Part shown: positions 35,695 through 40,084 of the stretch, in pieces
How positions within the stretch are numbered: position 1 is the first letter of the stretch
Layout: every line of letters begins with the position of its first letter
Source: Terriglobia bacterium
GTDB lineage: Bacteria; Acidobacteriota; Terriglobia; UBA7540
Direction of reading: 5' to 3'
Assembly (NCBI GenBank): GCA_030038235.1
Contig: JASHPE010000122.1
Location: forward strand, 20,925 to 84,924
Length of the DNA stretch: 64,000 bases
Notes under the pieces: generated by a model
Databases searched by the model: none
What the model was told of the DNA's origin: nothing
What the model saw: the letters and a program-made list of their open reading frames with translations, nothing else
Position numbers and translations under genes: made by a program

Positions 35695-36159
35695 TCAATA
35701 GCTACGGCGCTGGAACAGCCGCTCGTCCCAGACGACGTCACGCGGCTCGCTCACCGTGATGCGGCGGAAATCGTGATGCTCCGGATTGATCAGCACGTTG
35801 CGCTCGTGTCCCCGGGCGACGAGGCTCGGTACCAGTAGAACGGCCGAGCGATTGGAGGCAAGCCTCTCGTCACCAAACGCCCGGCTCGCCAACAGGTCCG
35901 CGGCGTCCCACCCACGTATCATTTCCATCTGTACTGATTCTATGGCCAGGTTGTCGGGGATCGTGACTTCGACTACAGCGTGAGTTCGCGGGACGCGGCC
36001 CAGGTTGGCATGCACCAGCGCTTCGAGCAGTGCGCCGGCGAAGGTTTCCGCACAATAGATCGGGGCGTGCCCCGGCGAGTTCCAGCGTCCCCCGGCGGCG
36101 CGCGCTCCGCTTGCATCAAAGATGGAATGCCGGCGGTCGGCGATGCGGAAGGCGCGCAT
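35695..36159 (-). CDS. RES-domain toxin
   Basis: MRAFRIADRRHSIFDASGARAAGGRWNSPGHAPIYCAETFAGALLEALVH. Confidence 0.9.
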   Translation of the reverse strand: MRAFRIADRRHSIFDASGARAAGGRWNSPGHAPIYCAETFAGALLEALVHANLGRVPRTHAVVEVTIPDNLAIESVQMEMIRGWDAADLLASRAFGDERLASNRSAVLLVPSLVARGHERNVLINPEHHDFRRITVSEPRDVVWDERLFQRRSY

Positions 36160-36590
36160 CAGGCTGGAATGCCGTAGATCAAACGATCGAGGAGTTCTTC
36201 CACCTGGCGGGCGCCAAGCTCGGTCATGGCGGCCTCGAGCGGCGTGCGCCGGCCCAATTCCGGGTGGCGCCTCGTCAACCAGTCGCGGGCATCCGCTTGA
36301 TCGTTCCAGGCGTATTCGGCGGCGGCAATCACGCGCGCCACCCTCTCCGTGCGCTCGCCCTCGGCCGGAGAAAGACGTGTCCGGCGCTTGAACGTAGCCT
36401 CCGGGACTACGCGAAACATCGTCCGGCGCACTTCGGCCTTGATGGTGAGCACGCGCTCCACAGTGGTTCGCAACGCACGCTTCGGCAGCCCGCGCGCAAT
36501 GGTCCGCTCCAGCTCGCGAATCGAGTGCACGCTCTGCTTGAGAATCGCTTTACCACCCATCACCTCGGCAATTCGGTCGGCTCGAATCAC
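36159..36590 (-). CDS. Xre/MbcA/ParS-type antitoxin (DUF2384) of the RES-Xre pair
   Basis: C-terminal EYAWNDQADARDWLTRRHPELGRRTPLEAAMTELGARQVEELLDRLIYG; TGATG overlap with RES gene. Confidence 0.88.
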   Translation of the reverse strand: MIRADRIAEVMGGKAILKQSVHSIRELERTIARGLPKRALRTTVERVLTIKAEVRRTMFRVVPEATFKRRTRLSPAEGERTERVARVIAAAEYAWNDQADARDWLTRRHPELGRRTPLEAAMTELGARQVEELLDRLIYGIPA

Positions 36591-37746: not shown

Positions 37747-39027
37747 TTGGACGCATCCACTTCCAAATCCATCCAGCCCATTCGCGCCGTCAAAGGGACG
37801 CGCGACTTGCTGCCGCGCGACGTCACGCTCTGGCAGAAGATCGAGGATGAAGTCCGCCGCACGTTCGGTGCCTACCACTTCGGCGAGGTTCGTACGCCGA
37901 TCATCGAGCCTACGGCGCTGTTCGCCCGCAGCGTAGGCGAGGACACGGACATCGTCAGCAAGGAGATGTACACGTTCCTCGACCGCTCCGACGAATCCCT
38001 TACGCTACGTCCCGAGGCCACGGCGTCCGTGGTGCGCGCCTATATCGAGCACTCGCTCTTCAACGAAGGTGGCGTGCGGAAGCTGTATTACATCGGACCG
38101 ATGTTCCGCCGCGATCGTCCGCAGAAAGGCCGCTATCGGCAGTTCTACCAGATCGGCGCCGAGGTGCTCGGCTCAAGTCATCCCGCCGTGGATGTGGAAG
38201 TCCTCGAGATGCTCACGCTCTTCCTGCGCCGCGTGGGCCTGCGGGATTTCACGCTCCTGATCAACTCCGTGGGCGACAAGAACTGCCGTCCGCAGTACCT
38301 CAACGCGCTGCGCGAAGCCCTGAGCGGCGTGAAAGCGCAGATGTGCGGCGACTGCCAGCGCCGCGCCGATACCAATCCGCTACGCGTGCTCGATTGCAAG
38401 GTGCCTGCCGATCAGCCGATCATCGAGGCTCTGCCGCATTTTATCGATTATCTCGACCCCGAATGCCGGGCGCATTTCGAAAGCGTTCTGACTGGGCTTT
38501 GTGCGCGCGAAATCCCGTATGAGATCAAGCCGCGGCTGGTGCGAGGCCTCGACTATTACACGCGGACCACGTTCGAGATCGCCAGCGGGGTGCTAGGCGC
38601 ACAGAACTCGATTCTCGGCGGTGGACGCTACGACGGGCTGTCGGAAATGCTCGGCGGCCCACCCGCGCCGGGGATCGGCTTCGCAATCGGTGAGGACCGC
38701 CTGGTGCTGGCGGTCGAAGCTGCAGGCGCGCTCAAGCCCGGGCATCCTTTGACCGCGTACGTGGCCTGGCTCGGCGAAGCCGCTGGCGCGGCGGCCGCCA
38801 AACTCACGCGGGAGTTGCGTGCGCAAGGCATCACGGTCGAAACCGGATATGAGGACGCCAAGCTGAAGAAGTCGCTCGGCAACGCGAGCCGCCTCGGCGC
38901 GGGTTTCGCGATCATCATCGGCGAGGGAGAACTTGCGAGTGGTCTGTACCAGGTCAAAGACCTGACGACGGGCCGGCAGGAGGCCGTCGAGCCTGCACGC
39001 CTGGCAGAGTATCTGACGCGCGCGTAG
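37747..39027 (+). CDS. hisS: Histidyl-tRNA synthetase
   Basis: IRAVKGTRDLLPRD; YYIGPMFRRDRPQKGRYRQFYQIGAEVLG; GLDYYTRTTFEI; GGGRYDGL. Confidence 0.96.
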   Translation: MDASTSKSIQPIRAVKGTRDLLPRDVTLWQKIEDEVRRTFGAYHFGEVRTPIIEPTALFARSVGEDTDIVSKEMYTFLDRSDESLTLRPEATASVVRAYIEHSLFNEGGVRKLYYIGPMFRRDRPQKGRYRQFYQIGAEVLGSSHPAVDVEVLEMLTLFLRRVGLRDFTLLINSVGDKNCRPQYLNALREALSGVKAQMCGDCQRRADTNPLRVLDCKVPADQPIIEALPHFIDYLDPECRAHFESVLTGLCAREIPYEIKPRLVRGLDYYTRTTFEIASGVLGAQNSILGGGRYDGLSEMLGGPPAPGIGFAIGEDRLVLAVEAAGALKPGHPLTAYVAWLGEAAGAAAAKLTRELRAQGITVETGYEDAKLKKSLGNASRLGAGFAIIIGEGELASGLYQVKDLTTGRQEAVEPARLAEYLTRA

Positions 39028-39745
39028 CCCGAAGCTTGCCGGCGCCCCCGTCAGGCAGGAGTCTTTCGAGCGTGCGAGCGACCTCTTCGGTGTGGAACCC
39101 GAACGGCCCTGGCTTCGACTTGTAGGCGATGCGCCCATCGCGATCGATCACGTAGAGTCGATCGGGCCAGGCGGTGTAAGCGCGTTCGGTGCTGTTCGCG
39201 ACGTCATCCACGATAGCCGGGTACTCGATTCCCAGCTTCACGAGGCATGTTCCGGCCACGTCGCAGCGCTCCTTCTGTGTGCGAGTGCTATGCAGAAAGA
39301 TCTTCGCCTTGATATTGTCGTCGTCCTGCCAGGCGTCGATCGGATGTGCTTCCTCGATGTAGACCACGTAGAAAGCGGCGCGGTCCCGGTACTTCTCATA
39401 GACCTTGTTGAGCGCGGGAACCTCCCGGCGGAAGGGCGGTCAAGTGTAGCTGCCGAAGATGAGCACCACGGGCTGCGATCCGCGGAACGACGCGAGCTGG
39501 ACCGAGGCCTTGTTGTCCTGAGTCGGCAGGCTGAAGTCCGGAGCGGTGTCGCCGACATGCAGCGTTCCAGCTCGCGCCCAGAACCACAGCGGCTTGAACG
39601 GGAGCACAATGAAGGCGGCGTCCGGGACGTGCTCCATGATCCGGCCAAAGCGGTCCGGGGTCTGTCGCATGGCGTCGTAAATGGCGGCGCAGAGCGCGCC
39701 ATACACAATGATGATCGCAAGCACGATTTTGTGCCATCTACGCAT
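38954..39745 (-). CDS. Deiodinase-like thioredoxin-fold selenoprotein; TGA at 39442-39440 read as selenocysteine
   Basis: Two in-frame ORFs separated only by TGA: VVLIFGSYT-U-PPFRREVPALNKVYEKYRDRAAFYVVYIEEAHPIDAWQDDDN...VDDVANSTERAYTAWPDRLYVIDRDGRIAYKSKPGPFGF; hairpin CGGGA-GGT-TCCCG 12 nt after the TGA. Confidence 0.85.
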
Positions 39746-39790
39746 GGGAAGAGCACCGATTATAGCACCCGAAAGGGAGTCCGCTTGTGC

Positions 39791-40084
39791 TCAGCGCGTC
39801 TGACGACCGTTGCGCCGGCGGCTCGCGACGAGCACTCCCAGGTTCGAGACGCAGAACGGCACCAGAAAGGTGACCGCCCCTTTGATCCACACGGCGCGCG
39901 TCGCCCTGCCCTGAATGACTTCGTCGAGATGATTGATGACGAATAGCACCGCGCCAACAGCGAGGGCAATCTGGACGGTCTTTTTCAGGAATGGCGGATA
40001 GACAATCACACGAAAAGTCTCGTGCCATCTGGCCCAGGTCGGTGGCTGCGCCGTCGCCGGCGCTTCGATTGGTTTCAAGACCGT
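39791..40084 (-). CDS. NrtS-like small membrane protein
   Basis: FLKKTVQIALAVGAVLFVINHLDEVIQGRATRAVWIKGAVTFLVPFCVSNLGVLVASRR; start uncertain. Confidence 0.7.
   Translation of the reverse strand, partial: TVLKPIEAPATAQPPTWARWHETFRVIVYPPFLKKTVQIALAVGAVLFVINHLDEVIQGRATRAVWIKGAVTFLVPFCVSNLGVLVASRRRNGRQTR

Follow-up and report, generated by a model that had tools for sequence, protein, structure and literature searches.

The soil-type acidobacterium examined here carries a complete gene for a predicted membrane-anchored relative of the iodothyronine deiodinases (DIO), interrupted by one in-frame TGA at the catalytic position. The gene very probably encodes a selenocysteine (Sec)-decoding, deiodinase-like selenoprotein with the architecture given in Table 1. 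Decoding of its UGA as Sec through a SelB-type hairpin is strongly supported, as are the deiodinase-type fold and active site. The gene lies in a 64,000-nucleotide stretch of DNA (hereafter the window) from the draft genome of a Terriglobia bacterium (Acidobacteriota; 6.67 Mb, 481 contigs, 92% complete, 3.7% contamination).

An earlier, sequence-only reading of the window had proposed that two minus-strand ORFs, 39440-39745 and 38954-39367, belong to one frame and are separated by a single TGA and 24 sense codons. Re-reading the sequence bore out all of these points. The frame 39745..38954 contains only one internal TGA, at 39442..39440, followed after 24 sense codons by the GTG that starts the second ORF, and it closes with a TGA at 38956..38954. 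The gene and hisS (37747-39027, plus strand) run towards each other and overlap tail to tail with their 3' ends at 38954-39027, and the last ~25 residues of the protein have no match in relatives. Elsewhere in the window (35695-36590, minus strand), a RES-domain protein (PF08808) lies beside an Xre/MbcA/ParS-type antitoxin (PF09722, PF20432), forming a type II toxin-antitoxin pair. When the ORFs flanking 79 related loci were clustered, no neighbor recurred at a fixed place, and the commonest cluster was scattered over 18 loci. Since no neighbor is conserved, the surrounding genes give no clue to function.

Table 1. Features of the predicted selenoprotein gene, with coordinates in the window.
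Feature	Coordinates	Strand	Basis and remarks
Complete deiodinase-like (PF00837) selenoprotein gene, predicted	38954..39745	-	263 codons plus stop; one TGA predicted to be read as Sec
In-frame TGA, predicted Sec102, catalytic position (FGSYT-U-PPF)	39440..39442	-	TGA in 79/79 close relatives; aligned with the Sec of DIO2/DIO3
N-terminal transmembrane anchor, ~residues 7-25, after MRRWHK	39671..39727	-	Kyte-Doolittle maximum 2.29; AlphaFold helix 2-26
Thioredoxin-fold deiodinase domain, ~residues 62-229	39059..39562	-	Pfam, PDB sequence and Foldseek matches
SECIS hairpin, nt 14-31 from the U of UGA	39412..39429	-	Covariation, frozen silent sites, same-position hairpins in other subfamilies
Loop-D motif Y129-I-E-E132-A-H134-P-I-D-A-W139	39329..39361	-	Counterpart of DIO2 Tyr157, Glu160, His162, Trp167
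Cys167, candidate resolving residue	39245..39247	-	39/40 close relatives; not at the DIO distal-Cys position
C-terminal GPFGF motif (DIO: GPDGY / GPFSY)	39095..39109	-	G213, P214, G216, F217 in 40/40; alignment

The sequence-only reading had also called the protein deiodinase-like, with similarity on both sides of the TGA, and had proposed a search against deiodinase and thioredoxin-fold families. That search agreed with it as far as sequence and fold are concerned, which is all that the label covers. The read-through protein matched the Pfam family T4_deiodinase (PF00837) over residues 63-230 with 122.7 bits against a cut-off of 27 (2e-35). Weaker matches were found to AhpC-TSA (59.2 bits, cut-off 26) and Redoxin. 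Among PDB sequences, mouse DIO3 (4tr3, 6e-24) and DIO2 (9h48, 2e-22) ranked ahead of ResA-like proteins. The NCBIfam model for 'deiodinase family protein' (NF038285) was matched by all 14 representatives (best 4.3e-63); the window protein scored 195.8 bits (E about 1.3-1.4e-57), below the cut-off of 250, and covered only model positions 177-340 of 347. An AlphaFold model for which 40 sequences from the window and the loci were used (mean pLDDT 86.4, pTM 0.81) consisted of the N-terminal helix and a thioredoxin-type domain. Foldseek searches of the PDB with this model ranked DIO2 first (9h48, 1.2e-13) and DIO3 second (4tr3, 4.3e-12), followed by DsbE/ResA-like proteins and the 1-Cys peroxiredoxin AhpE. 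In the whole-genome search, the only PF00837 match was the selenoprotein gene itself (116.4 bits, one TGA inside).

We then determined how widespread such genes are and which codon they carry at the Sec position. In a phylum sample of 396 genomes, 38 had a PF00837 match, 30 of which passed the cut-off, and the best 16 matches each contained exactly one TGA. A wider search, in which the Sec column was masked so as not to favor any codon, covered 84,980 species genomes and yielded at least 585 related loci. The best 80 of these all come from Acidobacteria or Acidobacteria subgroups by record title, and every one that spans the codon (79/79) has TGA. No Cys form occurs among these 79 close relatives. 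Among the matches listed, Cys was found at this position in eight sequences, all of them more distant (about 31-40% identity). A tree of 43 rows placed the window's clade apart from the Sec and Cys lineages that are more distant. In this tree, the branch of the animal deiodinases had a length of 3 and attached with support of 35/22, and because this branch is so long and weakly supported we make no claim about their ancestry. A viral origin was rejected, as pattern and tblastn searches of IMG/VR returned no relative.

At one locus (L053, G338:C233), the Sec/Cys codon is ACA for Thr (FGSSTTTNF); this family member is possibly a non-catalytic paralog beside another copy. Four more distant thioredoxin-fold genes of the phylum (L045, L046, L049 and L052) carry an in-frame TGA in the contexts YTUPPFRRR, ITUPPYR and FTUPYC, with GG-loop hairpins of 6-8 bp at the same spot after it; these apparently represent separate selenoprotein subfamilies. 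Some genomes (G218, G234, G314) hold several family matches.

Directly downstream of the TGA, the sequence-only reading had noted CGGGA-GGT-TCCCG, starting 12 nt after the stop codon, and had described it as a minihelix whose GGU loop sits about where that of the E. coli fdhF SECIS does. The letters are as described, and the hairpin is conserved across relatives, on evolutionary rather than energetic evidence. It has a 5-bp core (CGGGA/UCCCG), one bulged C and two outer pairs, with the GGU loop at nt 21-23 (39422..39420, minus strand). Among 84 close sequences, the silent sites of codons +5 to +8 hardly vary: Arg+5 is CGG in 83/83, Glu+6 GAG in 80/80, Val+7 GTT in 74/81 and Pro+8 CCC in 71/84. 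Elsewhere in this block, Val is encoded by a mixture of codons, unlike at Val+7. The silent wobble bases of Arg+4 and Ala+9 covary (C-G in 39, G-C in 31 and G-U in 9 of the 84), and the loop-closing pair changes jointly from A-U to C-G in four sequences. Over the seven pairs, 98.3% of cells were paired compared to 90.4% in shuffles, 44 cells were doubly changed compared to 20.1, and none of 500 shuffles reached the observed pairing score. Sliding the partner by 1-3 nt reduced pairing to 30-70%. Taken as comparative evidence, these patterns indicate that the hairpin is conserved as RNA.

In most Sec sequences at greater distance, the stem is unrelated and carries a GG-containing loop that starts at nt 20-25. 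Examples from other Sec subfamilies are CGGTC[GGTC]GACCG, GAAGATC[GGT]GATCTTC, CGGCGGCG[GGC]CGCCGCTG and GGATGGC[GGC]GCCATCC. Under a strict definition of this hairpin, three Sec sequences (L025, L029, L038) have none. Among the eight Cys homologs, a comparable hairpin is absent from six and weak in the other two. By minimum-free-energy folding, the 58-nt SECIS alone was no more stable than its shuffles (z = 0.75); since this fold is ordinary, stability was not used as evidence for the hairpin. Searched against Rfam, positions 38900-39800 gave no hit above chance.

These results bear on whether the TGA is a stop at all. A single in-frame stop in a draft genome could be a sequencing error or a true premature stop in a decaying gene whose downstream homology is a relic, and one relative with the TUPPF form (L051, G285:C62) does look frame-disrupted after 107 aa, its frame breaking soon after EAHA, which may reflect an assembly error or decay. 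We give this explanation next to no weight and consider pseudogene and sequencing error ruled out, because all 79 close relatives that span the codon, which come from independent assemblies, have TGA in this place, silent sites are constrained and covary right after it, and conserved residues continue downstream. The sequence-only reading had likewise held that the stop was not due to chance, and had named another codon in close relatives, with homology ending there, as the pattern that would speak against it; the relatives show the opposite on both counts.

The inserted residue cannot be told from an in-frame TGA by itself, so the UGA could in principle be read as another amino acid, for example as Trp by near-cognate suppression. 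We therefore considered the Sec machinery, whose four components the sequence-only reading had proposed to look for. All four were found by family search of the source genome: selA (569 bits), selB (351 bits, C-terminal part included), selD (389 bits) and tRNA-Sec (72.5 bits; tRNA-SeC with anticodon TCA by ARAGORN). With this gene set, the source is by prediction a Sec-decoding organism. Reading as Trp was rejected on the 79/79 TGA codons and the hairpin covariation, and a non-Sec reading in general is very improbable given the complete machinery, the SECIS-type hairpin, and the presence of Cys here in distant homologs and of Sec in animal deiodinases. Across the phylum sample, selA was found in 16/17 sampled genomes with the TUPPF form compared to 250/396 overall; the exception (G341) may reflect a gap in a draft genome.

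The selD gene (L021, G000:C189) is likewise interrupted by an in-frame TGA, located where the SelD active site normally lies (KAAG-U-AAKL); the predicted selenoproteins of this genome thus number at least two. CCAAG-TAT-CTTGG can form after this TGA and was judged by eye to be a candidate SECIS. Second, partial selB and selD pieces below the cut-off were also present in the draft genome (G000:C160, C293 and C47; L011, L016, L023), and may be contamination, strain variants or divergent paralogs.

Turning to the active site, the iodothyronine deiodinase core, Ser-x-Thr-Sec-Pro-Pro-Phe plus the Tyr/Glu/His/Trp of loop-D, is present. S99, T101, U102, P103, P104 and F105 occur in 40/40 aligned proteins, as do Y129, E132 and H134, and W139 occurs in 39/40. 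The network of DIO2 consists of Ser127, Thr129, Sec130, Tyr157, Glu160, His162 and Trp167 (PMC11592359), and maps to S99, T101, U102, Y129, E132, H134 and W139, each kept in 39-40 of 40. Two further positions are proposed to handle thyroid hormone, the relay His (DIO2 His182) and the substrate clamp (DIO2 Lys241/DIO3 Arg275) (PMC11592359). In the alignment, the first is P/A/T/E in 40/40 and the relay His is thus absent; the second is P/A in 40/40, without Lys or Arg. Since the counterparts of His182 and Lys241 are not kept, the name thyroid hormone deiodinase is unsuitable for the predicted protein. DIO1 is reset by its proximal Cys, Cys124 (PMC9141512). At this position of DIO1/DIO3 the bacterial proteins have Tyr or His, with the exception of three relatives with FGSCTUPPF (L030, L034, L037).

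A membrane anchor is strongly supported: all 40 aligned proteins have a strong N-terminal hydrophobic segment (Kyte-Doolittle above 1.6), preceded in 40/40 by at least one basic residue. Because of this combination, an anchor in the inner membrane with the domain outside the cytoplasm is likely under the positive-inside rule, from which alone the orientation is deduced.

Our best guess is that the protein is anchored in the membrane, probably works outside the cytoplasm and would reduce peroxides or halogenated organics as a 1-Sec enzyme. With modest confidence we lean towards peroxide-type or general thiol redox chemistry, in which case the protein would be a selenium peroxidase, or a thiol-disulfide reductase, of the peroxiredoxin/ResA type and would only resemble deiodinases. 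The AhpC/TSA and Redoxin matches are consistent with this, as is the rank of ResA and AhpE directly after DIO2/DIO3 in the fold search. The active site also lacks a CxxC-type partner (UPPF), as expected of a 1-Sec peroxidase. Against it speaks the conservation of two deiodinase-type motifs, EAHPxDxW of loop-D and GPFGF, which generic peroxiredoxins are not known to have.

The alternative is a true deiodinase function, in which iodinated or brominated aromatics, or other small halogenated, non-thyronine compounds, would be reductively deiodinated or dehalogenated. This is possible and the less probable of the two. It would fit DIO2 and DIO3 as the closest solved structures by both sequence and fold, and the conserved Ser/Thr/Sec/Tyr/Glu/His/Trp site. 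It fits poorly with the replaced relay, clamp and proximal Cys positions, and with the expectation that bacteria lack thyroid hormones (PMC1088965). We favor peroxide or general redox chemistry over dehalogenation because the thyronine-handling residues are missing, because of this expectation about thyroid hormones, and because the remaining site also suits a 1-Sec peroxidase. Other roles take up the remaining probability. A more specific proposal, which we consider doubtful, is that the large, Sec-exclusive, anchored Acidobacteriota clade comprises selenium-dependent reductive dehalogenases acting on environmental iodinated or brominated aromatics and stands near the bacterial stock of the animal deiodinases.

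Mechanistically, SelB with Sec-tRNA(Sec) would bind the GGU-loop hairpin just downstream of UGA102, and Sec would be inserted there instead of termination. The product would be a protein of 263 residues with an N-terminal anchor and a thioredoxin-fold domain that probably faces the periplasm, and its Sec would sit in the deiodinase-type site of S99-x-T101-U102-P-P-F with Y129/E132/H134/W139. In a 1-Sec cycle resembling that of peroxiredoxins, the selenolate may then remove oxygen or halogen from an organic substrate and be reset by a thiol, perhaps that of the near-invariant Cys167.

The 79 close TGA-bearing relatives and at least 585 related loci provide a genome-linked set of bacterial deiodinase-type selenoproteins. 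In them the animal active site is almost fully kept without the two residues that handle thyroid hormone, which opens the original chemistry of the deiodinase fold to experimental test. The set also yields an alignment of bacterial SECIS elements that is well supported and contains compensatory changes at silent sites. Since the TGA lies about 40% into the protein, such genes are at risk of being annotated as split or truncated.

The SECIS follows the bacterial pattern. Like the one used for expression in E. coli (core ggttgcaggtctgcacc, PMC3834832), it is a short hairpin after the UGA. The AGGU top of the E. coli-type element ggttgcAGGTctgcacc (PMC3834832) recurs in the window's CGGG-AGGUU-CCCG, while the stem sequence and the bulged C on the 3' arm differ. 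The window protein resembles vertebrate DIO1-3 in its FGSxTUPPF, loop-D (YI-E-A-H-P-x-D-x-W) and GP-x-x-Y/F motifs and its thioredoxin fold, and differs in lacking the counterparts of DIO2 His182 and Lys241 and the proximal Cys. The window gene has its SECIS in the coding region just after the UGA, whereas animal deiodinases have theirs in the 3' UTR. Membrane anchoring, known for the DIOs (PMC9141512), is common to both.

Bacterial deiodinase-like selenoproteins as a kind have been known since 2005, when four Sec and six Cys sequences with a bacterial SECIS were described from the Sargasso Sea, none of them then in completed genomes (PMC1088965). The GOS survey of 2008 added 22 (PMC2398784). 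Reviews list the family without a function, and two give the motif UxxC. The window protein and all TUPPF relatives have UPPF instead, and because no motif is listed for the family in the GOS table of 2008 (PMC2398784), UxxC is not agreed to be a defining feature. A search of the open-access literature found no paper on a deiodinase selenoprotein of Acidobacteria, and a broader one brought up nothing relevant either. The window gene shares with the Sargasso and GOS families the PF00837 domain, a TGA at the catalytic position and a bacterial-type SECIS directly downstream. Those sequences are marine and have Cys forms among their homologs, whereas the window's clade is terrestrial and has no Cys in 79 close relatives. 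The extent and uniformity of this terrestrial Acidobacteriota clade, its freedom from Cys forms among close relatives, its membrane anchor and its quantified SECIS covariation appear to be new.
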